40,564 bases of DNA from Bacilli bacterium (GTDB taxonomy: Bacteria; Bacillota_I; Bacilli_A; RF39; UBA660), in the NCBI GenBank assembly GCA_017940575.1, contig JAGAYJ010000032.1:75158-115721 (forward strand), given 5' to 3'. How positions within the stretch are numbered: the first letter of the stretch is position 1; each line of letters begins with the position of its first letter. The notes below the pieces were generated by a model, which saw only the letters and a program-made list of their open reading frames with translations, was not told the DNA's origin and searched no databases. Positions 5,955 through 40,239 of this stretch are shown piece after piece. A program made the translations under genes and the position numbers.

Positions 5955-6044
5955 GACCTCCTTTTATAATTCCAAGACTCACCATTAAGGCAACTTACGT
6001 TTTAAAACCTTTTTTGAGTGGTTGTAGAGTGAGGCTCTACACAC
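5955..6044 (-). ncRNA. L21-type ribosomal protein leader
   Basis: The roughly 90-nt 5' UTR of rplU is structured: TGTAGAG (6023-6029) and CTCTACA (6035-6041) form a hairpin, followed by CAACCACTC, an A/T-rich spacer and GGTGAGTC close to the AAGGAGG ribosome site. Position, size and layout fit the L21 leader known in Bacillota, thought to mediate feedback by an operon product. The family call is by position and general layout, not by a covariance search. Confidence 0.65.
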
Positions 6045-9751: not shown

Positions 9752-9782
9752 TTAAAAAAAATAGAAAGATTAACTTTCTATT
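9752..9782 (-). terminator. Intrinsic terminator of parE
   Basis: AATAGAAAG (9760-9768) pairs with CTTTCTATT (9774-9782), loop 5, and eight T residues follow on the minus strand. The parE stop (9778-9780) is inside the stem. Confidence 0.85.
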
Positions 9783-11682
9783 TAATATAATTATCAGTAA
9801 TTGTAAAGTCAACGTTTTCTTCCATCCATTCTTTTCTAGGTTCTACTTTATCGCCCATTAAAACACTAACTCTTTTTTCAGCTAAAGCACCATCTATAAT
9901 AGATACTTTAATTAAACTTCTTTTATCAGGATCCATTGTAGTTTCTCTTAACTGCATAGCATCCATCTCACCAAGTCCTTTATATCTAGAAATTGAATAA
10001 CTCTTTTTCATAGATGAAGTAATTTCTTTTCTATCTTCTTCAGTCCATGCATAATATTCATCTTTACCACTTGTTATTTGGTATAGTGGTGGCATTGCAA
10101 TATAAAGTCTACCTTCTTCAATTAAAGGTTTCATATATCTATAGAAGAATGTAATTAGAAGTATTTGAATGTGAGCTCCATCGTCATCGGCATCGGTCAT
10201 AATAATTACTTTATCATAATTACAATCTTTTATATCAAAGTCAGATCCAACTCCAGCACCAATAGTATGAATCATTGTATTTATTTCTTCATTTTTATAA
10301 ATATCTTCCATACTAGCTTTTTCAGTATTAAGTACTTTTCCACGTAAAGGTAAGATTGCTTGATATTTTTTATTTCTACCTAGTTTAGCAGAACCACCAG
10401 CTGAATCTCCTTCGACTAAGAAAAGTTCACATTTAGTCTTATCTTTTACTTGAGCAGGAGCAAGTTTATCAGATAAAGATTGTTCTTTTTTATTTTTACT
10501 TTTACCAGCTCTAGCCTCATCTCTTGCTTTTCTAGCAGCCTCTCTAACTTGTTTAGATTTAACCATTTTATTTAATATATCTGTTGCAATTTGATTATTT
10601 TCTTCTAAGAAAAATTGTAGTCTTTCAGATACTATAGATTCTACTACATTACGAGCTATAGGAGTACCAAGTTTTCCTTTTGTTTGTCCTTCAAATTGAA
10701 GTAATGCCTCAGGTATTTGAAGAGAAATAATTGCAGTTAAACCTTCTCTTGTATCTGGTCCTTCTAAATTCTTATCTTTAGCTTTTAAGTATCCATTATT
10801 CTTAGCATAATCATTATATACACGAGTTAAAGCTGTTTTAAATCCAACTTCATGTGTACCACCATCATTAGTCTTAACATTATTAACAAAAGATATAATG
10901 TTTTCTGAATAGCTATCTGTATATTGAAAAGCTATATCTACATTTATGCCTTCTTTAGAACCATTAAACTGTACAACATTATGAAGAGCTTTTTTATCTT
11001 CATTTAAGTATTCAACAAATGCTTCTAAGCCATTTTCATAGTGATATGTCTCTTTTCTATCATCTTTTTCATTTATAACTTCAATAGTTAATCCTTTAAG
11101 TAGAAATGCACATTCCTGCATTCTCTCACAAATAGTTGAGAAAGAAAATACTGTAGTTGAGAATATCTCAGGATCTGGCTTAAATGTTACACTTGTACCT
11201 GTTTTACTAGTTTTTTCTAATTTTTTTAAAGGTATTTTAGTATGTCCGCCATCTTCAAAACGAATATAATGATTATACCCATCTCTTTTAATATATACAT
11301 CCATCCAAGTAGATAATGCGTTTACTACACTAGCGCCTACTCCATGAAGTCCTCCTGATACTTTATACCCACCGGCTTCAAATTTACCACCTGCATGTAA
11401 GACAGTATAAATAACCTCAGGTGTAGATATACCACTTGAATGCATTCCAACTGGAACTCCACGTCCTTCATCTTCTACAGTTATACTATCATCTTTATGT
11501 ATTGTAATAGTTATTTTTTTACCATAACCATTTATAACTTCATCGACACCATTATCTACGATTTCCCATACTAAATGATGTAAACCTCTTTTATCAGTTG
11601 AACCAATATACATACCAGGTCTTTTTCTAACGGCTTCAAGTCCCTCTAATACTTTAATCGAATTTTCATCATATTTTGCCAT
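9778..11682 (-). CDS. parE: DNA topoisomerase IV subunit B
   Basis: 634-residue type IIA topoisomerase ATPase subunit. The GHKL ATPase domain shows WEIVDNGVDEVINGYG and the glycine-rich SGGLHGVGASVVNAL. The TOPRIM domain shows VEGDSAGGSAKLGR and DADDDGAHI, and the sequence ends near LMGDKVEPRKEWMEENV, a ParE-type C-terminus (GyrB usually ends differently and has other TOPRIM-adjacent residues). With ParC it decatenates replicated chromosomes. parC, usually directly downstream, is absent: the unit has its own promoter and ends with a terminator right after parE. AGGTGATATC precedes the ATG. ParE versus GyrB is judged by motif only. Confidence 0.9.
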   Translation of the reverse strand: MAKYDENSIKVLEGLEAVRKRPGMYIGSTDKRGLHHLVWEIVDNGVDEVINGYGKKITITIHKDDSITVEDEGRGVPVGMHSSGISTPEVIYTVLHAGGKFEAGGYKVSGGLHGVGASVVNALSTWMDVYIKRDGYNHYIRFEDGGHTKIPLKKLEKTSKTGTSVTFKPDPEIFSTTVFSFSTICERMQECAFLLKGLTIEVINEKDDRKETYHYENGLEAFVEYLNEDKKALHNVVQFNGSKEGINVDIAFQYTDSYSENIISFVNNVKTNDGGTHEVGFKTALTRVYNDYAKNNGYLKAKDKNLEGPDTREGLTAIISLQIPEALLQFEGQTKGKLGTPIARNVVESIVSERLQFFLEENNQIATDILNKMVKSKQVREAARKARDEARAGKSKNKKEQSLSDKLAPAQVKDKTKCELFLVEGDSAGGSAKLGRNKKYQAILPLRGKVLNTEKASMEDIYKNEEINTMIHTIGAGVGSDFDIKDCNYDKVIIMTDADDDGAHIQILLITFFYRYMKPLIEEGRLYIAMPPLYQITSGKDEYYAWTEEDRKEITSSMKKSYSISRYKGLGEMDAMQLRETTMDPDKRSLIKVSIIDGALAEKRVSVLMGDKVEPRKEWMEENVDFTITDNYIK

Positions 11683-11726: not shown

Positions 11727-11745
11727 AGATTTCCTTATTTTTTAA
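11706..11745 (-). terminator. Intrinsic terminator of the paralogue operon
   Basis: On the minus strand AATAAGGAAA pairs with TTTTCTTATT (one G-T pair), followed by a T-run. The stop codon at 11735-11737 lies next to the 5' arm. Confidence 0.75.
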
Positions 11746-12781
11746 CTAAAACATTATCAATATCCAAATTACCATTCGCATATTTTCTTAAAACAAATTG
11801 ATATACACCTATAGGATAATTCTTATTTTCTATATATTCAAATATTTTTTCTTTTTCTTCTCTTAAAATTTCTCTTCCACCAATTATTGATTTACTATCA
11901 AGTTCAATATTTTTACTAATATTATTATTTAATGCATTTAGCCTTCTAAGTCTATTTATAACAATATCTGAAACCTTTCTTGGAACCAATGGCGCGATTA
12001 TTCTTTTAAAATCAACAAATGAAAGTTTTGTAATATCAAGATAATCTAATATATCAAAATCTTCATTAAGTGCGATATAATTTGCAAAATTTTTTAGTTT
12101 TTCTTTTATATCACTTGAATCTCTAGATAAAATATCATTAGCCATTTGACTTAAAACAGTATTTTTACTTTTTTTATATTTATCCACAATAAATGAAGCA
12201 ACACTATATGATAATTCTTCTTGAGAACAATACTCAATTATACAATAATTTGATTTATATATATCTATAAGATTTAATTCTTGTTCTGTAAGATTATCTG
12301 TTTTATTTATATAATCTATATCATCAATATTATTTAAAGTCTCTTTTTTTATATATTTATCATATATATCATATAAGTATCTTACTTCATCATCTTGATT
12401 TGGATAATATCTTTTAAATTTTTTCATAATACTATTAAATTTAGATGTTGTAATTTCATTTTCTTTTATAATTTTATCAAGCATTTTTTCATCAGAAAAA
12501 AGTAAATCAAAAAGAATTTTTGAATATGATGTATTTTTTTCATTCATTACTTTTTTCATTATTACTCCCAATTGTTCTTTAGTTAATTTAGAATAATAAA
12601 TCTCATCTATGTTATTTATTATTTTATTTATTTCTTCTTCCTTATCAGGATGTAAAACAATATATCTTTTTAATATATAACAAATATAAGATGGACTTCC
12701 TATTAATCTAAGATAAAAACCATTTTCTCTATTATTTAAATATTTATCAACCTTATATTGAAATAGAGCTTCTCTTGCCAT
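11735..12781 (-). CDS. Repeat-family protein, paralogue 1 (unknown function)
   Basis: 348 residues, no signal peptide or TM, strongly helical and lysine-rich. It resembles the three genes upstream. N-terminal unit (about 10-62): KYLNNRENGFYLRLIGSPSY, then LHPDKEEEINKIINNIDEIY. A second, diverged unit (about 75-145) has FDLLFSDEKMLDKIIK and KKFKRYYPNQDDEVRYLYDIY. The C-terminal domain (about 175-348) has IIEYCS, the block DFDILDYLDITKLSFVDFKRII, and the closing GGREILREEKEKIFEYIE with KYANGNLDID. I do not recognise the family. It is the last gene of an operon, 11 bp after paralogue 2, with GGAAGTGAT before the ATG. Confidence 0.85.
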   Translation of the reverse strand: MAREALFQYKVDKYLNNRENGFYLRLIGSPSYICYILKRYIVLHPDKEEEINKIINNIDEIYYSKLTKEQLGVIMKKVMNEKNTSYSKILFDLLFSDEKMLDKIIKENEITTSKFNSIMKKFKRYYPNQDDEVRYLYDIYDKYIKKETLNNIDDIDYINKTDNLTEQELNLIDIYKSNYCIIEYCSQEELSYSVASFIVDKYKKSKNTVLSQMANDILSRDSSDIKEKLKNFANYIALNEDFDILDYLDITKLSFVDFKRIIAPLVPRKVSDIVINRLRRLNALNNNISKNIELDSKSIIGGREILREEKEKIFEYIENKNYPIGVYQFVLRKYANGNLDIDNVLVKK

Positions 12782-12792
12782 ATAATCACTTC

Positions 12793-13845
12793 CTATTTTT
12801 TTAAAACTTTTAATCTATCATTTAAATATCTTTTTAAAGCAACATTATATAAACCTAGTGGTAAATTATTATCTTCTAAATATTTAAAAAGAGCTTCCTT
12901 TTCTTCAAAAGTTATTTCTCTACCTGATATAATTTTTTTTGAATTAAGTTCTATTGTTTTATTTATATTCATATTTAATTTAACTTTCATATTAAGTTTT
13001 TGAACAATTCTAACAATATTTTTTTTATCTATTTTTTTAGATATTATATCTCTAAAATCACTATTTTTAAGTCTAGTAACTTCATAATAATCAAGAGCAT
13101 CAAAAGAATCATTTGTATCTATTTCATAAGCTAATGAAATAATTCTATCATAAAACTTTTCACTAGGAGTTCTACTTAATATTTCTTTTGACATTTCGCT
13201 ATAATCACCACATTTTAAATTTGATTCAACTATTGATTTTGTTTTAACAATAGATTCACCTGTTAATGAACAGAATTCCTCAATAGATAGTTTACTTAAA
13301 TATAAGCTTTCAAATCTGTTATTTATGTTATTTTTCCACTCTTTGTCATAAAATAATGATACATTTATATAATCTTTTTTCTTATTGCTTTTACTGTCTA
13401 CTAAAGCTTGATATTTACTCATAACGTTTGATAAATAGTTATATTCATCTTTTTGTTTTTTATAAACACTATTAAATTTTTCTATAGAACTTTTTAATCT
13501 TTTCATAGTTATTTTATTATTATCAAGATATTTTAGTGCAGCATCTTCATCTTTAGTAAGTAAATTAATAAGTATATCAATATATTTACATGGTTTTTCA
13601 GCATTTCTTTTTTCTAAAACTTTAATTAAATTATCTCTTTGATAATTTTCATATCTTAAAACATCTAAATTATCAATTAATAAATTTATTTCATATGATC
13701 TATCAGGATTTTCTTTCAAATATTCTTTTAAATATTTTAAAATAATAGTATTTGTACCTAACATATATAGTTCTGAAAAATCAGATGTACATCCATTAAT
13801 ATATCTTTCAATTATTTCAAATGATATATTTTTTTTCTTACTCAT
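12793..13845 (-). CDS. Repeat-family protein, paralogue 2 (unknown function)
   Basis: 350 residues with the same plan as its neighbours: an N-terminal unit (about 9-62; ERYINGCTSDFSELYMLGTN, ENPDRSYEINLLIDNLDVL), a diverged second unit (about 75-150; ILINLLTKDEDAALKYLDNN), and the shared C-terminal domain with LSIEEFCSLTGESIVKTKSI, then DSFDALDYYEVTRLKNSDFR and SGREITFEEKEALFKYLED before LKRYLNDRLKV. SIEEFCS-x-TG-x-SIxKxK could be a helix-turn-helix, which is inference only. It starts 4 bp after paralogue 3 ends, so the two are co-transcribed and probably coupled. GGGGATGATGAT precedes the ATG. No function can be assigned. Confidence 0.85.
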   Translation of the reverse strand: MSKKKNISFEIIERYINGCTSDFSELYMLGTNTIILKYLKEYLKENPDRSYEINLLIDNLDVLRYENYQRDNLIKVLEKRNAEKPCKYIDILINLLTKDEDAALKYLDNNKITMKRLKSSIEKFNSVYKKQKDEYNYLSNVMSKYQALVDSKSNKKKDYINVSLFYDKEWKNNINNRFESLYLSKLSIEEFCSLTGESIVKTKSIVESNLKCGDYSEMSKEILSRTPSEKFYDRIISLAYEIDTNDSFDALDYYEVTRLKNSDFRDIISKKIDKKNIVRIVQKLNMKVKLNMNINKTIELNSKKIISGREITFEEKEALFKYLEDNNLPLGLYNVALKRYLNDRLKVLKK

Positions 13846-13849
13846 ATCA

Positions 13850-15463
13850 TCATCCCCTTGATTTTTTTATTAATACTTTATCATCAATTTTCAATTTACC
13901 ATTTACATATTTTTTTAAAGCTGAATTAAATAAGCATAAAGGATAATTGTTTTCTTCTAAAAAGTTAAATACCTTTTCTTTTTCCTCTTTACTTATTTCT
14001 CTACCATTTATTACAATTTTACAATTCATTTTTGCTTCTTTGTTTACTATAGTATGTAGATTATCAGCAGGATCAATTCTTGAAGGATTAATTCTATATA
14101 AATCAACTTTTGATAAAATATCTATAATCATTTCATGTGAAATTATTCCTTTCATTGTTTCTCTAAAATCCTTTGTAGATAATCTTGTAATACTCAAGTA
14201 ATCAAATATATCAGCATCATCTTTTGTTAATATAGTTAAAACATCATATTTAAGTTTTGTTAAAAATATAGAACTACTTCTTTCAAGTAAACTTGTTCCT
14301 ATATTTCTTTTATCTAAATTTTCTGATTTTATGTATTTAACACATAATTTTTTTATTTTTTCAATAGATGCACCTGTTTTTGAACAATATTCTTCAATAG
14401 ATAATGAACTATATAGTATATCATTCATTAGATCTTTATCTTTTGATTTTCTGTCAGAAGATTTTTTTATAAAATCTCTATCAAGATGTTTTTCTTTAGA
14501 ATTTAACTGATATATATTATCTATATTGTTAATAATGCTTATTACATATTCTTTATTATCAGGATGTTTAATTACATAATTCTTTAATTTAGTTAAAAAG
14601 ATATCTTTCGTATATAATCTACATAACTCATCATTAGTTATAAACCCATTTATATATCTTGTAATTATTGTATCCGAGCTAAGCACTTTAGTATCCTTAT
14701 AATAACTATCTAGTTTAATAAACATCTCCTCAATTTCATCTTCTTTTGATGGATTTAATTCTAAAAATTTATTTAATCTATTTTTTATATATGAAATAGA
14801 GCCTAAATTTCTTACTTCATCAAAAGAAGCGTTACCTTCTAAATATGCATTTATAGTCTTAACATACATTGCTTCTTCTTTGACTTCTTTTTTTAAATTA
14901 TCAATATTATTGATTATATTATCTATTTCATCTGTCTTATCAGGAAATTTAATTTTATATTTTTCTAAATTTTCAATTAATATTCTTTTTCCTTTAAAAT
15001 ATCTACTTAATTCCTTAAAATCAATTTTACCTTCCAAATATGTATTTATATATCTTATATATTTTGGGACTAATCTTGATTCTATAAAATAGTTATCTAT
15101 GTCATTAATAATATTATCTATATCACTTATTCTATCTTGATTATATTCTTTATATTTTTTTAACATTTCAACTACTTGTTTTTTTGTTCCCAACATACGA
15201 ACTGTTCTAAAACTTATTTTTCCATCAAAATAATCATTAAGTGTTTGGACATATGCTGGCATTTTTTTAGTAGACTTTAAAAGCTCATCTAAATTAGAAA
15301 TTATATCATCAATTTCACTTTTTCTATTTGGATAATATGATGCATATTTTTTTAAAGCCATATATATTTCTCTTTTACTTCCAATCATTCTAATATAAAT
15401 AAAATCATTTGTTACGCCGTCTAAATATTCAGTTATAACTCTATAATTATACCCCTTATACAT
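13850..15463 (-). CDS. Repeat-family protein, paralogue 3, five-repeat long form (unknown function)
   Basis: 537 residues from the ATG at 15461-15463, which follows AGGGGTGAT. The longer open frame from a TTG at 15499 would place that start in the promoter -10 region and is rejected. The N-terminal part holds five repeats of 64-65 residues starting near 7, 71, 135, 200 and 264. Each reads roughly Y-x3-I-x2-YL-x-G, then F-x5-LG-x-K, LKKY, P-x-K-x-DEI, IIxNIDxLY. The short paralogues carry one clear and one diverged unit. The C-terminal domain (about 345-537) is shared: LSIEEYCSKTGASIEKIKKLC, FDYLSITRLSTKDFR, NGREISKEEKEKVFNFLEEN, LKKYVNGKLKID. It is the first gene of the three-gene operon. Confidence 0.85.
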   Translation of the reverse strand: MYKGYNYRVITEYLDGVTNDFIYIRMIGSKREIYMALKKYASYYPNRKSEIDDIISNLDELLKSTKKMPAYVQTLNDYFDGKISFRTVRMLGTKKQVVEMLKKYKEYNQDRISDIDNIINDIDNYFIESRLVPKYIRYINTYLEGKIDFKELSRYFKGKRILIENLEKYKIKFPDKTDEIDNIINNIDNLKKEVKEEAMYVKTINAYLEGNASFDEVRNLGSISYIKNRLNKFLELNPSKEDEIEEMFIKLDSYYKDTKVLSSDTIITRYINGFITNDELCRLYTKDIFLTKLKNYVIKHPDNKEYVISIINNIDNIYQLNSKEKHLDRDFIKKSSDRKSKDKDLMNDILYSSLSIEEYCSKTGASIEKIKKLCVKYIKSENLDKRNIGTSLLERSSSIFLTKLKYDVLTILTKDDADIFDYLSITRLSTKDFRETMKGIISHEMIIDILSKVDLYRINPSRIDPADNLHTIVNKEAKMNCKIVINGREISKEEKEKVFNFLEENNYPLCLFNSALKKYVNGKLKIDDKVLIKKSRG

Positions 15464-15467
15464 AAAT

Positions 15468-15500
15468 ATCACCCCTAATAGATGTATATTATATACCAAA
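15468..15500 (-). promoter_or_regulatory. Duplicated promoter/operator block, copy A
   Basis: A 33-bp block that matches copy B (16598-16630) at 31 positions. It contains the palindrome GTATATTATATAC (15484-15496), centred on the -10 box TATAAT (15488-15493), and the ribosome site AGGGGTGAT. The -35 box TTGCTT is at 15511-15516, spacer 17. A palindrome over the -10 box is a typical place for a repressor operator; that it is one is inference. Confidence 0.6.
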
Positions 15501-15514
15501 AGAATAAAAAAAGC

Positions 15515-15546
15515 AAAATAAAAAAGAAATTAACATTTCTTTTTTT
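15515..15546 (-). terminator. Intrinsic terminator of paralogue 4
   Basis: AAAAAGAAAT (15521-15530) pairs with ATTTCTTTTT (15535-15544), then T-rich sequence on the minus strand. The stop codon (15530-15532) is at the loop. The copy A promoter -35 box is directly beside it. Confidence 0.75.
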
Positions 15547-16594
15547 GACGTCCTAAATCCAAAGTACCATTTGCATATCTTTTTAAAGCAATTCTATATA
15601 AATCTATTGGAATACTATTATCCTCTAAATAATTAAATATTCTTTCTTTTTCCTCTTTAGTAATAACCCTACCACCTATAGTATTAATAATTTCTAATTC
15701 TTTTTCCTTATTTATTGGTGTACTATAACTTATCTTATTCATTTTACTAAATTTTCTAAGTATCATAATAACTTTATCTTTTGGTAAAACTTCATATAAT
15801 ATATCCCTAAAATCTTCATATTTTAATTTAGTATATAAATAATAATCAAGTCGATCAAACTCATCTAATTCTAAAATTTTTATACCTACATCTTTAATGT
15901 AGTTTTTAAATTCACTACAGTCTCTTTTTAATATTTCATCTATTATTTCTTTATAATATTCTCTATTTTTTTCACATAATAATTTAATAGAATTTATCCA
16001 AAGACCATTATTTGAGCAATATTCCTCAATAGATAAGTTACTTAAATATAAATCTTTTAACTTTTTATCTATTTCATTTTGCTTATTTGAATTATTCATA
16101 TTAAATAAAGCATTTTTATTTAAATAACAATTTCTTTTATCTTTTTTATTTAACTGACTTTTAACTGAAATAAGTATATCGTTTAATTTTTCTATCTCTT
16201 CCGTTTGAAGTGGATAATTAGTTTTAAATTTTTTTATAGATGATGATAAATCAGTTACTGAATAATTTTTACTTTTAATAATTTTAATTGCTTCAATTTC
16301 GTCAACAAATAATATATCATTTATAACACTTATATATTTAACATATCTATATTTAAGTTCATTTTCAAATACTTTTTTAATTTCTTCTTTATTTAGTTTT
16401 ATATTGGTTAAACTAGATAGATTAGACATTATATAATTAATTTCGTTTAAATGTTCTGGATGTAGTTTTACATAATATTTTAATGAATTTAGAATTGAAG
16501 ATGTATCACCAATTAAATATATATCAATAAAACTATCAGTCTCACCAGTTATATATTTATTAATAGCTTCAATATTCTTTGGTTTAACGCTCAT
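15530..16594 (-). CDS. Repeat-family protein, paralogue 4 (unknown function)
   Basis: 354 residues. The N-terminal unit (about 8-64) has AINKYITGETDSFIDIYLIG and LHPEHLNEINYIMSNLSSL. The second diverged unit (about 82-152) has INDILFVDEIEAIKIIKSKN and KKFKTNYPLQTEEIEKLND. The C-terminal domain (about 180-354) has LSIEEYCSNNGLWINSIKLLC, FDRLDYYLYTKLKYEDFRDI, and GGRVITKEEKERIFNYLEDN before LKRYANGTLDLG. There is no signal peptide or TM. It is transcribed alone: its own promoter (copy B) and a terminator before paralogue 3. Having the most upstream position and a separate promoter that duplicates the downstream one, it looks like one product of a gene-plus-promoter duplication. Confidence 0.85.
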   Translation of the reverse strand: MSVKPKNIEAINKYITGETDSFIDIYLIGDTSSILNSLKYYVKLHPEHLNEINYIMSNLSSLTNIKLNKEEIKKVFENELKYRYVKYISVINDILFVDEIEAIKIIKSKNYSVTDLSSSIKKFKTNYPLQTEEIEKLNDILISVKSQLNKKDKRNCYLNKNALFNMNNSNKQNEIDKKLKDLYLSNLSIEEYCSNNGLWINSIKLLCEKNREYYKEIIDEILKRDCSEFKNYIKDVGIKILELDEFDRLDYYLYTKLKYEDFRDILYEVLPKDKVIMILRKFSKMNKISYSTPINKEKELEIINTIGGRVITKEEKERIFNYLEDNSIPIDLYRIALKRYANGTLDLGRQKKKC

Positions 16595-16597
16595 TTA

Positions 16598-16630
16598 ATC
16601 ACCCCTAATGGTTGTATATTATATACCAAA
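16598..16630 (-). promoter_or_regulatory. Duplicated promoter/operator block, copy B
   Basis: The palindrome GTATATTATATAC (16614-16626) covers TATAAT (16618-16623); the -35 box TTGCAT is at 16641-16646, spacer 17; AGGGGTGAT is the ribosome site. It is almost identical to copy A in front of paralogue 3. Confidence 0.6.
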
Positions 16631-16643
16631 TATTAAAATAATG

Positions 16644-16672
16644 CAAAAAAAAGAAAATATTTCTATTTTCTT
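16644..16672 (-). terminator. Intrinsic terminator of infC-rpmI-rplT
   Basis: AAGAAAATA (16651-16659) pairs with TATTTTCTT (16664-16672), followed by eight T residues on the minus strand. The rplT stop (16671-16673) overlaps the stem. Confidence 0.85.
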
Positions 16673-17201
16673 ATTTTAAAGCATCAATTAATTCTGCTTT
16701 TTTCATTGAAGTATAACCTTCAATTTTTTTAGATTTTGCTAATTCTTTAAGTTCTGCAACTGTCATTTTTGATAAATCAGTTGATTCTGATTTAACAGCT
16801 TTTTCAGCTTTAACTTCTTCTTTAACTTCAGCTTTTTTAACTTTTCCATTTAATGCATCTTGAGCAACTTTAACTAACTCAGCAAATGCTTTTGGATCTT
16901 CTATTGCAAGTTCAGATAACATTTTTCTGTTGATAATAACACCAGCTTTATTTAAACCATTGATGAATTTAGAATAGCTAATGTTGTTCATTCTACATGC
17001 AGCATTAATTCTTGTTATCCAAAGTTTTCTGAAATCTCTTTTCTTTTGTCTTCTATCTCTATAAGCATATTTTAAAGAATGCATTACTTGTTCTTTAGCA
17101 GTTTTGTATAATCTATGTTTTGAACCAAAGTAACCTTTAGCTAATTTCATTACTTTAGCACGTCTATTGTGATGTATATTTCCACCTTTAACTCTTGCCA
17201 T
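16671..17201 (-). CDS. rplT: 50S ribosomal protein bL20 with C-terminal Rho_N-like extension
   Basis: 176 residues. Residues 1-118 are ordinary bL20 ([40 protein letters not shown]), an early assembly protein of the 50S subunit and the usual autorepressor of this operon. The family normally ends near 118. Here a K/E/V-rich linker (119-140) leads to [18 protein letters not shown] and [11 protein letters not shown] (142-176), which match the Rho N-terminal (SAP-like) helix-extended-loop-helix motif. There is no stop, frameshift or SD between the two parts, so it is one fused reading frame. GGAGGTAG precedes the ATG. The role of the extra domain is unknown; nucleic-acid binding is the obvious guess. 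Confidence 0.95.
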
Positions 17202-20921: not shown

Positions 20922-21128
20922 AATATATAAAAAGCATTAATCTATAAGGACGAGTTTCCCCGCGGTACCACCTTATTTCATAATGCTATGCTCTTTATCT
21001 CTTAACGCGAGTATACGTTTAAACTCCAAAGCAAGTTCATAAGTTTTATTTAAATGTTTTCACCATCCACATTTTCTCTTTATAAATAATAACTTACTAC
21101 TACTCTTCTTCCTTGTTTAATCAAAACT
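20922..21128 (-). ncRNA. T-box riboswitch, Leu specifier
   Basis: The minus strand has the T-box GGTGGTACCGCG (20961-20972). In the stem I region TATGAACTTGCT presents CTT (21033-21035) as specifier, a Leu codon, in the same TATGAA context as the Asp T-box at 4790-4998. The terminator form pairs ATAAGG with CCTTAT around an inner CGGG-GAAA-CTCG hairpin, followed by T-rich sequence. It controls the small membrane gene and leuS. Confidence 0.92.
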
Positions 21129-25575: not shown

Positions 25576-28500
25576 TTAATTAGATCTAATAAGTACAGTT
25601 GAAGTCTCTGCTTTATTACCTGCTTTATCATACACAATTATATAAACAGTGGTACTTCCTTTACCATAATATGGAATATCTGCACCTGCATTACCTGCAC
25701 TTGATATATCTGAAAGTGGTACATTTTTTCCACCAATAGATACAGAACCAAGACCTGATAATGCGTCTTTTACAACCGCATATATTCTAAAGTCAGTAGT
25801 TGATGGAGTTGTATAACTTCCAACTGGCCATACTTCTGGAATTGTTGGATTAGTCTTATCAATTCTAATTGTAAACATATTAGATGCAGCACTTGCATTA
25901 CCTAAATTGTCAACTGCTCTAATATAGAAATTCCATTGTCCTTCCCATGTAATCCAATAGTCAAATATTGTTTTATTTTCATAGAAAGCTGTTTGCCATC
26001 CTAGTGTTGATATATCAGCAGTCCAGCTCTTTCCATCATGTGAATATTGATAATACTTAACTCCAGAACCTGTGTCTGTTGATTTAGATCTTGTAAGTAC
26101 ACTTTTATTTGTCCATGCACCACTTGAGTAACCATTACCCCATGTTGTATTATTGCTAGCTGTACTTTGAACTAATTGAATACTTGGTTTAGATGGTGCG
26201 GTTACATCTATTTTAGATACGGTAGCCGATGCATTACCTGTTGTATTTTTTCCATCTGTTATTCTTGCATATAAAGTAGATGTAGATGTAGATGTTGTAT
26301 TATATGTAATACTTGGTTTACTTGTTGTATAATACCATGTATTTGCTACCATTGATTTAGTAGACGTTATATTAGAACAAGTACCAGGATTAGTAGATGT
26401 TCCACAACTTTTTGTTAAATTAACACTACTTGTTGCACTTCTTGTAGTTCTAACATAATATCCTGTTGGATTTCCTGATGTAGTTAGATTCCATACTTGT
26501 GATTTATAATATCCGTTAACTGCAGATGATGGTGAATTTGATGATGAAAGTGCAACTGAAAGTTGTGTCGTTTTAGCACTTCCTGTTTTACATGTTGATC
26601 CATTTCCTACCTTGTCATTAATACAAAATTGATAATAGTATGTTGTATTATGTGTGATATTACTTATTGTACAGTTACTTGTTGTTACACTACTTGCATT
26701 TGTTGTATAAGATCCACTTGTTGTTGAATACTTACATGTAACTGTATTTAATCCTGAATTTGCATCACTACTAGTTATTGGTATACTTATGCTCTTGCTT
26801 GTAACAGTTGCATTACCAAGTGTTACAGTTGGGCTTGTTGCATCTATCTTAGATACGGTAGCTGAAGCATTACCTGTTGTATTTTTACCATCACTTATTC
26901 TTGCATAAAGTGTAGCATTTGCAGCGTTTGTCTTATTATAAGTTATACTTGGTTTACTTGTTGTATAATACCATGTATTTGCTGCCATAGATTTAGTAGC
27001 TGTTATATTTGTACAACTACCAGGATTAGTACTTGTTCCACAACTCTTTGTTAAATTAACGCTACTTGTTGCAGCACTCGTACTTTTTATATAATAAGCA
27101 TTTGGATTTCCAGATGTCGTTAAATTCCACACCTGACTTTTTAAATAGCCATTTTGTGCAGTACTTGGTGTATTGGTTGCTTTAAGTGCGACTGTAAGCG
27201 CAGTTGTTTTACTACTTCCTGTTTTACAAGTAGAATTATTGCCTACTTTATCACTAACACATACTTGATAATAATATGTTGTATTATGTGTGATATTACT
27301 TATTGTACAATTACTTGTTGTTACACTACTTGCATTTGTTGAGTATGTTCCATCTGTTGTTGAATATTTGCAAGTAACTGTTCCAAGGCCAGAATGTTCA
27401 TCACTACTAGTTATAGGTATAACAATACTATTACTTGTAACAGATACACCACCAATTGTTGCTGTTGGACTTGTAGCATCAATTTTAGATACAGTCGCTG
27501 ATGCATTAGTTGTTGTATTTTTTCCATCACTTATTCTTGCGTATAAAGTTGCTGTTTCTGTATTTGTAGAATTATAAGTTACTGTTGGTTTACTTGTTGT
27601 ATAATACCATGTATTTGCTGCCATAGATTTAGTAGCTGTTATATTTGTACAACTACCAGGATTGGTATCAGTTCCACAACTCTTTGTTAAATTAACGCTA
27701 CTTGTTGCAGCACTCGTACTTTTTACATAATATGCATTAGGATTACCTGTTGTATCTAAATTCCATACTTGTGTTTTAAAATATTCATTTTGAGAAGTTG
27801 TAGGTGTATTAGTAGCTTTTAGCGCTACTGTAAGTGCAGTTGTTTTACTACTTCCTGTTTTACAAGTAGAATTATTGCCTACTTTATCACTAACACATAC
27901 TTGATAATAATATGTTGTATTATGTTTAACATTACTTATTGTACAATTATCAGTTGTTGCACTACTTGCATTAGTTGTATAACTTCCTGATGTTGTTGAA
28001 TATTTACATGTAACTGTATTTATTCCAGAATTTATATCACTGCTTGTTATAGGTATTACTATGCTCTTACTTGTTACAATAACTGTTCCAAGTGATAACG
28101 TTGGACTTGTTGCATCTATCTTAGATACAGTAGCTGATGCATTACTTGTTGTATTTTTTCCATCACTTATTCTTGCATAAAGTGTAGCATTTTCATCACT
28201 TGTCTTATTATAAGTTACTGTTGGTTTACTTGTTGTATAATACCATGTATTTGAACTCATATTTTTAGTAGATGTAATACTTGTACAACTACCAGGATTA
28301 GTATCAGTTCCACAACTTTTTGTTAAGTTTACACTACTAGTTGCATCACTTGTACTTTTTACATAATATGCATTAGGATTACCTGTTATATTTAAGTTCC
28401 ATACTTGTGTTTTTAAATATCCATTTTGTGCAGTACTTGGTGTATTTGTTGCTTTTAAAGCTAATGTAAGCGCCGTTGTTTTACTATTTCCAGTTTTACA

Positions 28501-29760
28501 AGTAGAAGTATTACCTACTTTATCACTTACACATACTTGATAATAGTATGTTGTATTATGCACTATATTATTTATTGTACAGTTACTAGTTGTTACACTA
28601 CTTGCATTTGTTGAATATTTTCCATCGGCTGTTGAATATTTACATGTAACTTTTCCAAGTCCAGAATGTGCATCATAACTAATTATAGGTATACTTATAC
28701 TCTTACTTGTTACTGTTATATTTTCCAATGTAACTGTTGGACTTGTTCTGTCTATCTTAGATACAGTTGCTGTTGAATTTCCTGTTATACTAACTCCATT
28801 TGTTACTCTTGCATATATTGTATTTTCTTCATCTTTTGTTTTATTATATGTAATTTTTGGAGAAGTCTCAAAATAATACCACTTATTTGATTGTAGGCTT
28901 TTTGTACTATCAACTATACAATTTGATGGACTATTATTTGAACCACAACTTTTAATTGATGCTACATTACTAGTGGCTTCTTTTTCAGTTTTAATATAGT
29001 ATCCTTCTGCATCATTAGAATCATAATCAAGATAAGCAACTTGAGTTTTAAAATATCCCAATTGTGATGTACTTGGTGTATTATTAAATTTAACTTTTAA
29101 AGTTCCCAATTTTAAAGTGCTTACTTTAAATTCCTTTACTCTACTCAATTTTTTTCCATTAGTTGCTGTTACTTTTATTGTATATTCTTTTCCTGCTTTT
29201 AATTTATCAAATACTTTGGTAACAGTTATATCCTTACTATCATAATTATCAATATATTCTTTTCCATCTATTTCATACTTAATTGATTTAATACCTGTTT
29301 CTTTATCAACTAAATTAATATTTAAAATTATACTTTTAGAAGTAACACCTATGTTTGATATATCAATATCAGGTGCAGATACATCTAGATCTTCACAATT
29401 TTTTTGAATATCTAAATTTTGTTTATTACCTAATACGCAATAAGAATCTAGTTTAATATAACGTAATTCTGAATTGCTACCAGATATTATTTCACCTTCA
29501 AGTGGTACTGAACCTTTTAAAGATAAAATAACATTTTTATTATTTATACATTTATCTCCATCACAGATAAATGTAGAATTTGATTTTGATGCGAAATATA
29601 AATCTGCTGAATCAATTAATCCATATGCACTATCCCTAACTGCAGTTTTACGTGAATTTTCAATAACACCTATAAGTACAGGATAAGCAATTAATGCAAT
29701 AATTGCAAGCACTATTATTACTGCAAGTAACTCTACTAAAGTAAAACCTCTTTTTTTCAT
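25576..29760 (-). CDS. Giant prepilin-like surface protein with four Ig/FN3-type repeats
   Basis: 1394 residues. The N-terminus MKKRGFTLVELLAVIIVLAI is a type IV prepilin (class III) signal: basic leader, cleavage between Gly5 and Phe6, Glu at +5 and a hydrophobic helix (about 6-28). A normal pilin would be 100-250 residues. After a globular region (about 40-215) and one diverged repeat half (217-332), four 212-residue repeats start at about residues 333, 545, 757 and 969 (VSKIDxTSPT). Each has FN3/Ig-like segments and six cysteines (TCKYST, NCTI, VCVSD, TCKTG, SCGT, SCT), so disulfides and an extracellular place are likely. Repeat 5-like and C-terminal domains (1181-1394) are aromatic-rich. 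No other pilus gene is in the window. GAGG precedes the ATG. Confidence 0.85.
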   Translation of the reverse strand: MKKRGFTLVELLAVIIVLAIIALIAYPVLIGVIENSRKTAVRDSAYGLIDSADLYFASKSNSTFICDGDKCINNKNVILSLKGSVPLEGEIISGSNSELRYIKLDSYCVLGNKQNLDIQKNCEDLDVSAPDIDISNIGVTSKSIILNINLVDKETGIKSIKYEIDGKEYIDNYDSKDITVTKVFDKLKAGKEYTIKVTATNGKKLSRVKEFKVSTLKLGTLKVKFNNTPSTSQLGYFKTQVAYLDYDSNDAEGYYIKTEKEATSNVASIKSCGSNNSPSNCIVDSTKSLQSNKWYYFETSPKITYNKTKDEENTIYARVTNGVSITGNSTATVSKIDRTSPTVTLENITVTSKSISIPIISYDAHSGLGKVTCKYSTADGKYSTNASSVTTSNCTINNIVHNTTYYYQVCVSDKVGNTSTCKTGNSKTTALTLALKATNTPSTAQNGYLKTQVWNLNITGNPNAYYVKSTSDATSSVNLTKSCGTDTNPGSCTSITSTKNMSSNTWYYTTSKPTVTYNKTSDENATLYARISDGKNTTSNASATVSKIDATSPTLSLGTVIVTSKSIVIPITSSDINSGINTVTCKYSTTSGSYTTNASSATTDNCTISNVKHNTTYYYQVCVSDKVGNNSTCKTGSSKTTALTVALKATNTPTTSQNEYFKTQVWNLDTTGNPNAYYVKSTSAATSSVNLTKSCGTDTNPGSCTNITATKSMAANTWYYTTSKPTVTYNSTNTETATLYARISDGKNTTTNASATVSKIDATSPTATIGGVSVTSNSIVIPITSSDEHSGLGTVTCKYSTTDGTYSTNASSVTTSNCTISNITHNTTYYYQVCVSDKVGNNSTCKTGSSKTTALTVALKATNTPSTAQNGYLKSQVWNLTTSGNPNAYYIKSTSAATSSVNLTKSCGTSTNPGSCTNITATKSMAANTWYYTTSKPSITYNKTNAANATLYARISDGKNTTGNASATVSKIDATSPTVTLGNATVTSKSISIPITSSDANSGLNTVTCKYSTTSGSYTTNASSVTTSNCTISNITHNTTYYYQFCINDKVGNGSTCKTGSAKTTQLSVALSSSNSPSSAVNGYYKSQVWNLTTSGNPTGYYVRTTRSATSSVNLTKSCGTSTNPGTCSNITSTKSMVANTWYYTTSKPSITYNTTSTSTSTLYARITDGKNTTGNASATVSKIDVTAPSKPSIQLVQSTASNNTTWGNGYSSGAWTNKSVLTRSKSTDTGSGVKYYQYSHDGKSWTADISTLGWQTAFYENKTIFDYWITWEGQWNFYIRAVDNLGNASAASNMFTIRIDKTNPTIPEVWPVGSYTTPSTTDFRIYAVVKDALSGLGSVSIGGKNVPLSDISSAGNAGADIPYYGKGSTTVYIIVYDKAGNKAETSTVLIRSN
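26216..28759 (-). repeat. Four in-frame tandem repeats of exactly 636 bp in the pilin-like gene
   Basis: The anchor GATAC in the VSKID codons occurs at 26216, 26852, 27488, 28124 and 28760, each 636 bp apart. The repeats are close at DNA level and keep the frame with no length change, which indicates expansion by unequal crossover or replication slippage and leaves the gene prone to copy-number change. Confidence 0.85.
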
Positions 29761-37062: not shown

Positions 37063-37782
37063 TTAATTACTAGAACCATTTAAATAAAACGGAATATCAC
37101 GGTTAGATGAATAATAATTAGGAATACTTCCTTGAATCATTTTAATAGCAATTGGAACACTGTCTTCTACCTTAACCTCTTTTATTGAAAAAGGTAAAAT
37201 CATTTGTTCCGTAATACTAATTTTAATATCAAGCTCTATAATTGCATTATTAATGCCATAATCATTTACTTTTGTATCTACACTAACTATTATATCTCCA
37301 ATTAAATGTAGTTTAACTGGTATCTTAGGTCCTATATTAGATAATAATACATTATTAAAAATAATACCTGTTGGTATTTCATAAATTATTCCTTTTTTTA
37401 TTTTTGATTTATCTTTTAAAATAGTTACTTCTTCTAATTCTATTTCACCTTTTTCTAATTTGCTTAAATTAATTTTTAAATTCTTATTTATAGTTAATAT
37501 AAGCTCATTTATTTTAGCTGTATTAAAATCAACTGTATTATTTTTTTCAATAAACAAATTATTTCTTATATTATCTATTACATTATCATTTAAAGATTTA
37601 TTAATAATATAATTTATTATTTTTTTAGATTCAATTTTGCCATATTCCTCTACTTTTTTAGATAAACTAATTCCAATATATCTAAAACATATTATAAGTG
37701 ATACTATTAAAAAAAAGATTAATAATAAAATAAAAGTAAATGGAGATAAATATCTTTTTTTCTTAAGTTTTATTCTTCTCAT
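37063..37782 (-). CDS. yunB: Sporulation protein YunB
   Basis: 239 residues from the ATG at 37780-37782 (MRRIKLKKKRYLSPF), with a TM helix (about 17-39) and an extracytoplasmic domain (VDFNTAKINELILTINKNL, PTGIIFNNVLLSNIGPKIPV, DYGINNAIIELDIKISITEQM). YunB is a mother-cell sporulation protein in Bacillus, of unknown biochemical role. An ATG at 37807-37809 gives a longer frame but lies in the preceding terminator hairpin. Neither ATG has a ribosome site: the sequence in front is CATATTTTTTAGT. A sigma-E-like pair, AAACATT and CATATTTT 15 bp apart, would place the transcript start near the ATG and make it leaderless. The start is therefore uncertain. Confidence 0.75.
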   Translation of the reverse strand: MRRIKLKKKRYLSPFTFILLLIFFLIVSLIICFRYIGISLSKKVEEYGKIESKKIINYIINKSLNDNVIDNIRNNLFIEKNNTVDFNTAKINELILTINKNLKINLSKLEKGEIELEEVTILKDKSKIKKGIIYEIPTGIIFNNVLLSNIGPKIPVKLHLIGDIIVSVDTKVNDYGINNAIIELDIKISITEQMILPFSIKEVKVEDSVPIAIKMIQGSIPNYYSSNRDIPFYLNGSSN

Positions 37783-37795
37783 ACTAAAAAATATG

Positions 37796-37818
37796 CATAA
37801 AAAAAACATTAATGTTTA
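37796..37818 (-). terminator. Intrinsic terminator of hairpin-protein copy 3
   Basis: On the minus strand AACATTAA pairs with TTAATGTT across a short loop and eight Ts follow. The stop (37809-37811) lies in the hairpin. Confidence 0.75.
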
Positions 37819-38763: not shown

Positions 38764-40239
38764 ATGGATAAGATAGATATTATAAAAAGTATTAGTGAGC
38801 GTACTGGTGGAGATTTATACTTGGGTGTTGTTGGGGCTGTTAGATGTGGTAAATCTACTTTTATAAAAAAAGTAATCGAATCACTTGTTGTTCCAAATAT
38901 AGAAGATGAATATGAAAAGAAAAGAACACTTGATGAAATACCACAATCAGCCCAAGGTAAAACAATAATGACCACAGAACCAAAATTCGTACCTTCTAAT
39001 GCAGCTAAAATTAAAATAGATGAATTTGAAACTAATATAAGATTAGTTGATTGTGTTGGATATATTGTAGATGGCGCTAAAGGATATGAAGATGAAAATG
39101 GTCCACGTATGGTAAAAAGTCCATGGTATAATGAAGAAATACCCTTTGTAGAAGCCGCTGAAATTGGAACAGAAAAAGTAATTAGAGATCACTCCTCTAT
39201 TGGTATAGTAATTACTACTGATGGATCATTTGGAGAAATTGAGAGAAATAGCTATGTTGAAGCTGAAGAGCGTATTGTAGATGAGTTAAAAACTTACGGC
39301 AAGCCATTTATAGTTATATTAAACTCTGCTCATCCAATGTTACCAGAAACTGAAAGATTAGCTGATTCATTAAAAGAAAAATATAATGTACCAGTTTTAC
39401 CTATAAGTGTTGAGAATATGACAGAACGAGATATTTATAATATTTTAAAAGAAGCGTTATATGAATTTCCAGTAATTGAAGTAAAAGTTAATATGCCAGA
39501 ATGGATTACTTGTCTAAACTCTGATAACTGGCTTAAAAAACATTATATAGATAAGATTAAAGAAAGTGTTTACGAAGTTGATAAATTAAGAGATATAGAA
39601 GGAATAACAAATCACTTCTCAGATTCAGAATATATTGATAAATCATATATTTCAAATGTAGACACAAAAACAGGTATTATTACATTAAACTTAGATTGTA
39701 AAGAAGAGTTATATAATCAAATACTAAATGAAATAATAGATGTTGATATGAATAATAAAACAGAAGTTTTAAAAATGTTTCAAGATTTTAGAGAAGCTAA
39801 AGAAGAATATGATCAAATCAAAAGTGCTCTTAAAATGGTTAAACAAACAGGTTATGGTATAGCATCACCTAGCCTTAAAGATATGAGGTTAGATACACCA
39901 GAGATTATAAAGCAAGGAACTAGGTATGGCGTTAAACTAAAAGCGACAGCTCCATCAATTCACATGATTAGAGTTGATGTAGAATCAACCTTTGAACCAA
40001 TAATAGGATCTGAAATACAAAGTAAAGAATTAATTGACTATTTAACTAAAGACTATGATACTAATCCATCTAACATATGGAAAAGTGAAATATTTGGAAG
40101 AAGCTTAGATGTAATTGTTAAAGAGGGAATACAAGCTAAGTTATCATTAATGCCTGATAATATAAGATTAAAGCTTAACAATACCTTAACTAAATTAGTT
40201 AATAAAGGGTCAGGTAATTTATTTGCAATTGTAATATAA
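38764..40239 (+). CDS. spoIVA: Stage IV sporulation protein A
   Basis: 491 residues, close to the 492 of Bacillus. SpoIVA is an ATPase that polymerises on the forespore outer membrane and founds the coat and cortex. The Walker A is GAVRCGKST (24-32) in LGVVGAVRCGKSTFIKK, DCVGYIVDGAKGYEDENGPRM (about 98-118) follows as in the family, with the middle domain and the coiled coil/C-terminal membrane-targeting region (QSKELIDYLTKDYDTNPSNIWKSEIFG) at the end. The start ATG has AGTAGGGAT in front. It is under a sigma-E-like promoter, the sigma that drives spoIVA in Bacillus. Confidence 0.96.
   Translation: MDKIDIIKSISERTGGDLYLGVVGAVRCGKSTFIKKVIESLVVPNIEDEYEKKRTLDEIPQSAQGKTIMTTEPKFVPSNAAKIKIDEFETNIRLVDCVGYIVDGAKGYEDENGPRMVKSPWYNEEIPFVEAAEIGTEKVIRDHSSIGIVITTDGSFGEIERNSYVEAEERIVDELKTYGKPFIVILNSAHPMLPETERLADSLKEKYNVPVLPISVENMTERDIYNILKEALYEFPVIEVKVNMPEWITCLNSDNWLKKHYIDKIKESVYEVDKLRDIEGITNHFSDSEYIDKSYISNVDTKTGIITLNLDCKEELYNQILNEIIDVDMNNKTEVLKMFQDFREAKEEYDQIKSALKMVKQTGYGIASPSLKDMRLDTPEIIKQGTRYGVKLKATAPSIHMIRVDVESTFEPIIGSEIQSKELIDYLTKDYDTNPSNIWKSEIFGRSLDVIVKEGIQAKLSLMPDNIRLKLNNTLTKLVNKGSGNLFAIVI

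Follow-up and report, generated by a model that had tools for sequence, protein, structure and literature searches.

Four tandem genes between rplT and gyrB belong to an apparently undescribed, fast-evolving protein family of uncultured gut Bacilli

We found that four neighboring genes, here W1–W4, form a tandem expansion of a family of cytosolic proteins that evolves fast and appears to have escaped description so far, and we tentatively favor, at somewhat less than even confidence, a reading in which each product would be a chain of nucleic-acid-binding units. The window, i.e., the whole stretch of DNA that was analyzed (40,564 nucleotides), comes from a genome of 1.02 Mb in 40 contigs with a completeness of 89%. 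As a sequence-only reading of this DNA had listed them, all four ORFs exist within 11735–16594 on the minus strand, where they occupy the interval between rplT (16671–17201, minus strand), which flanks W4, and gyrB (9778–11682, minus strand), which flanks W1. W1 (11735–12781; 348 aa) carries one 64-aa unit (aa 9–68), a middle helical segment, and a C-terminal module; W2 (12793–13845; 350 aa) has one such unit (aa 8–71) and the module; W3 (13850–15463; 537 aa from the ATG at 15463) has five units and the module; and W4 spans 15530–16594 (354 aa). The G+C content of this stretch is ~20%. Hydropathy in a 19-residue window reached a maximum of 1.37, so that, as the earlier reading had it, W1–W4 have no transmembrane segment. 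Since only 4 bp separate W3 from W2 and 11 bp separate W2 from W1, these three genes look like one transcription unit. The start of W3 is most likely the ATG at 15463 rather than the TTG at 15499 given in the ORF list, since the −10 region of a promoter-like block coincides in part with the TTG, and AGGGGTGAT lies ahead of the ATG.

The C-terminal domain, which the earlier reading had described as shared, aligned in every pair among W1–W4 and two homologues from a second genome of the same genus (La and Lb, below), with z = 27–75 versus shuffles. A profile built from 54 sequences matched it, always on the minus strand, at 15551–15973 in W4 (E 7.6e-34), 13877–14305 in W3 (E 5.8e-31), 12802–13227 in W2 (E 2.8e-31), and 11753–12175 in W1 (E 6.1e-31). 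The module is ~135 residues long; its consensus starts with I..G.........F..LDYY..T.L....F, continues with a variable stretch, and ends with GRxITxEEKxxIxxYLxxNNIPLxxxxYxxALxRYxNGxL. The LSIEEYCS motif that had been proposed as part of the domain is present in the array but degraded in W1 (CIIEYCSQ). At about six loci in several genera, the module makes up nearly the entire protein (155–170 aa); at one locus (L027), it is present twice; and across members, the N-terminal arm that precedes it ranges from none to ~550 residues. The repeat and the C-terminal domain had both been put forward as marks of the family. Judged by these comparisons, the diagnostic is the C-terminal module and not the 64-residue repeat, which is clear in the window's genus only and of which the W3 orthologue lacks all five copies. 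AlphaFold2 predicted W4 as helical with one small hairpin near the C terminus (mean pLDDT 79.9, pTM 0.46) and W3 as helical (mean pLDDT 73.3, pTM 0.38); domain packing in both models is unreliable, because the input held only six sequences.

The five N-terminal units claimed for W3 were borne out by a profile of the 64-residue unit, which matched each of them at i-E < 1e-23: unit 1 at 15263–15448 (i-E 1.6e-27), unit 2 at 15074–15253 (7.3e-27), unit 3 at 14873–15064 (2.1e-24), unit 4 at 14684–14869 (9.8e-25), and unit 5 at 14492–14677 (2.7e-24), all on the minus strand. In local alignments against shuffles, the W3 unit pairs tested gave z = 9–16, and W3 unit 1 gave z ~14 against the one unit that W1, W2, and W4 each carry. 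The same profile found a single copy in each of W1, W2, W4, and La. For W1, W2, and W4, the sequence-only reading had described one clear and one diverged unit; the clear unit stands, but the second segment had no significant similarity to unit 1 of the same protein (z 0.9–1.9; best domain i-E 0.008). This segment is nevertheless conserved, at 30–34% between paralogues and 64% between W4 and its orthologue, and the so-called diverged unit is a separate conserved segment. Outside the genus, the best trace of the unit had an i-E of 1.5e-4 (L026), and fainter traces occurred in L015 and elsewhere; the control with reversed sequences gave one marginal hit.

In the second genome of the same genus (G001), the order of genes at the corresponding locus, L030, is rplT–La–Lb–gyrB. 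La (L030:3039–4097) is orthologous to W4 (58% identity; tree support 97/99), and Lb to the C-terminal part of W3 (55% identity; tree support 99/99). For W4–La, dN was 0.30 and dS 0.72, and for W3–Lb, dN was 0.30 and dS 0.80; given that dN/dS is thus ~0.4 between both pairs of orthologues, W1–W4 are real genes under purifying selection. Synonymous distances between paralogues are near saturation and are rough values. In the same genome comparison, dN was 0.03 for gyrB, 0.17 for radC, and 0.23 for a neighboring 145-aa ORF, so that W4 and W3 have a dN ten times that of gyrB. Because La and Lb are each orthologous to a separate gene of the window, at least two copies are older than the split of the two genomes. 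Lb has none of the five N-terminal units and yet its C-terminal part is conserved, which argues that the units are dispensable; by this comparison, one of the two lineages either lost the repeat arm or acquired it. At L030:4097–4214, Lb keeps a diverged promoter-like block, and its start lies ~70 bp further downstream, without the five units.

Read from the sequence, a promoter-like block lies upstream of W4 at 16614–16647 (minus strand; TTGCAT, 17 nt, TATAAT), and a near-copy lies upstream of W3 at 15484–15516 (minus strand; TTGCTT, 17 nt, TATAAT). A perfect 13-bp dyad, GTATATAATATAC, covers the −10 of W4 at 16614–16626 and is followed by ATTAGGGGTGAT ahead of the ATG; the same dyad occurs at the W3 block (15484–15496). 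The near-identity of the two blocks, together with the shared dyad, suggests that the promoter was duplicated along with the gene. Similar promoter-like blocks precede both homologues at L030. A promoter scan returned a match overlapping the W4 block, but promoters were not in excess over shuffles. With up to one mismatch, six dyad matches were found in the window versus 0.55 expected, but four of these come from counting the W4 and W3 sites once on each strand. Since it contains TATAAT, the dyad may have arisen fortuitously, such a dyad being cheap in an AT-rich promoter. A regulon sharing the promoter string was also considered; the third exact copy in the genome sits inside a membrane glycosyltransferase-like gene, so none was found.

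We then examined how widely the family occurs. Within the same taxonomic family, a profile of the four proteins picked up relatives in 15 of 193 genomes; when the search was iterated on the C-terminal module, the count rose to 38 of 146 and then to 58 of 196 genomes, the latter representing 42 of 121 genera. Outside that taxonomic family, searches of 300–400 genomes of the class and phylum returned partial or marginal matches only (E > 4e-5), with no credible full-length relative among ~380 genomes. A first set of such marginal hits was rejected as FAD-linked oxidases, aminotransferases, a hydrolase, and an IS3-type OrfA, judged by sequence, and a second set as partial or weak (E > 4e-5). No relatives were found in phages, plasmids, or viral contigs. 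Thus, within genome samples drawn from a larger set, the protein family appears restricted to one taxonomic family of uncultured gut Bacilli. The earlier suggestion of a lineage-specific family holds to this extent, but the family is not specific to the array: W1–W4 are a local tandem expansion within a wider, mostly single-copy family. Tandem arrangements recur in several genera, and other genomes with several copies include one with three ~1 kb apart (G198), one with two adjacent (G056), and one with six (G186).

The genomic setting of the family varies, with members placed at the boundaries of different housekeeping genes. With neighbor names read from sequence, a member lies between Era-like and RecO-like genes at five loci in three genera (genomes G148, G172, G339, G039, and G023; loci L015, L019, L032, L058, and L066), and this gap is a candidate for an older location of the family. 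With names likewise read from sequence and not from library matches, members adjoin mnmA-like genes at three loci in two genera and a PolC-like gene at three loci in three genera. Downstream of rplT in 29 other genomes, no member was found within 1.5 kb (for two of these loci, the sequence stops right after rplT). The rplT–gyrB gap of a genome from another genus contains an unrelated protein of 276 aa (L089:2079–2906, plus strand).

The description of the family as unrecognized was upheld by the profile and structure searches that the sequence-only reading had proposed, which placed W1–W4 in no well-described family. When W1–W4 and 40 diverse members were compared with Pfam, NCBIfam, PHROG, and PADLOC, only scattered sub-threshold matches were obtained, none common to more than two members; the best PHROG and PADLOC matches (E 0.0013 and 0.0017) each came from one member only. 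No helix-turn-helix family scored above its curated cut-off for any of these proteins. The sub-threshold matches include a few helix-turn-helix-type families (PapB, IS66 TnpA, DNA invertase, Rok winged helix, and MerR), which might also turn up by chance. PDB sequence profiles gave nothing significant for the family, nor did Foldseek searches of PDB structures and viral models (best E 0.21 and 0.28), and a literature search found no paper on it. As it is absent from the libraries searched and no paper was found, the family appears to be new as a family, while orphan families of this sort, confined to one lineage and made of small helical domains in tandem copies, are familiar.

None of the tests assigned a function to these proteins. 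Multi-unit nucleic-acid binding is our leading guess because the unit weakly resembles helix-turn-helix domains of the transposase type. In a comparison with HTH_28 (Pfam PF13518, the helix-turn-helix of IS3-type transposase OrfA), residues 5–41 of the unit profile were collinear with columns 3–40 of 53, a stretch that covers the three-helix core, and both domains can occur in tandem. The hhalign probability of 51% was reached by 0 of 60 column shuffles and not by the reversed profile, while L20, an all-helical control, gave 0.1%; single-pair E-values from hhalign are not library-calibrated. The likeness may, however, be generic to small helical bundles, since DnaB_2 scores almost as high (44%). 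Identity to HTH_28 is only 11%, no Pfam match exceeded the cut-off, the family has no transposase partner, and the unit has an additional C-terminal helix. On the reading we favor, the 64-residue units, and in part also the C-terminal module, would be small helix-turn-helix-like bundles. The protein would then be a string of units that bind nucleic acid, probably DNA, with the module as their anchor, such that the number of units would alter binding length or affinity. Possible roles would be those of an autoregulated regulator or a chromosome-associated protein, with the dyad over the −10 boxes as the sole hint of an operator. Several observations stand against nucleic-acid binding: a number of members have an acidic pI (as low as 5.3), the pTM values are low and no fold match was found, and the guess is further weakened because the five units, judging from Lb, are dispensable. 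A bolder proposal, which we think rather unlikely, is that these proteins make up a new class, restricted to one lineage, of modular binders of nucleic acid built from tandem 64-residue helix-turn-helix-like units and a distinctive C-terminal module, whose unit number changes fast between close relatives, i.e., a bacterial repeat system for altering DNA or RNA recognition.

A protein–protein scaffold ranks close behind nucleic-acid binding and is a serious possibility. Here, a protein partner would be bound by an alpha-helical arm made up of the units, the C-terminal module would be the anchor, and fast evolution would reflect co-evolution with the partner. The helical models, the absence of a catalytic motif, the fact that many members are not basic, and an arm length that varies from none to ~550 residues are all consistent with such an adaptor. 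TPR and designed helical repeats, which are likewise chains of short helices without a catalytic motif, make up most of the top fold neighbors, which are weak and non-significant. However, the period is 64 residues versus 34 in TPR, sequence matches to TPR, HEAT, and other helical-repeat families were all below significance, and the fold matches (E > 0.1; TM-scores ~0.2 or less) are such as any long helical chain may give.

The rapid divergence could alternatively mark a conflict gene, for example one in anti-phage defense, with fast evolution and tandem copies as traces of an arms race. The ten-fold excess of dN over gyrB, the tandem and scattered copies, and the patchy presence would fit this idea. 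We nonetheless regard it as unlikely, as no PADLOC match of note was obtained, phages, plasmids, and viral contigs held no relatives, neighbors are housekeeping genes and not defense islands, dN/dS is below 1, and the adjoining 145-aa ORF is likewise fast (dN 0.23). A still smaller chance attaches to the idea that the family is a lineage-specific branch, distantly related, of the replication-initiation proteins DnaD/DnaB. The DnaB_2 domain (DnaD C-terminal domain; Pfam PF07261) weakly matched the last helical pair of W4 (residues 301–340, E 0.45) and, as above, the unit profile; moreover, gyrB adjoins the array, and PolC-like neighbors occur in three genera. The W4 match reached only 10.7 bits against a curated cut-off of 22, though, and the C-terminal module scored only 5% against DnaB_2. 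The window's own genome separately encodes two DnaB_2 proteins of the ordinary type, one DnaD-like (224 aa) and one DnaB-like (436 aa), whose presence, rather than any functional result, led us to reject the family as the genome's DnaD or DnaB and lowers the likelihood of a DnaD-like replication role. That W1–W4 are decaying or non-functional ORFs, similar by composition alone, is very improbable, for while ~20% G+C and rapid divergence would fit, this is contradicted by dN/dS ~0.4 between orthologues, C-terminal domains aligning at z > 26, and frames intact in dozens of genomes.

The family matters first as an undescribed one kept under selection in ~1 Mb genomes, where few genes are dispensable, and the module profile offers a ready means to name those proteins of these gut Bacilli that match no library family. 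Interest in the family would rise markedly only if its repeat units proved to read nucleic acid, as we tentatively favor; if they do bind it, the gain or loss of units within one genus would show the evolution of a repeat-built binding protein.

Several other features of the window deserve mention. L20, encoded by rplT (16671–17201, minus strand), has a C-terminal Rho_N domain (36.8 bits, above cut-off); used as a query over all 176 residues, tail included, L20 has matches in ~30 further genomes of the taxonomic family, in which similar tails also occur on other proteins. An L21 leader matches at 5965–6033 (minus strand; 45.4 bits, gathering 36), and a T-box leader lies at 20943–21122 (minus strand), upstream of the gene for leucyl-tRNA synthetase. 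A 1394-aa protein encoded at 25576–29760 (minus strand) has an N-terminal methylation (pilin-like) motif and an Fn(III)-like match. Finally, the presence of the sporulation genes for SpoIVA (38764–40239, plus strand) and YunB (37063–37809, minus strand) suggests that endospore formation has been retained despite genome reduction to ~1 Mb.
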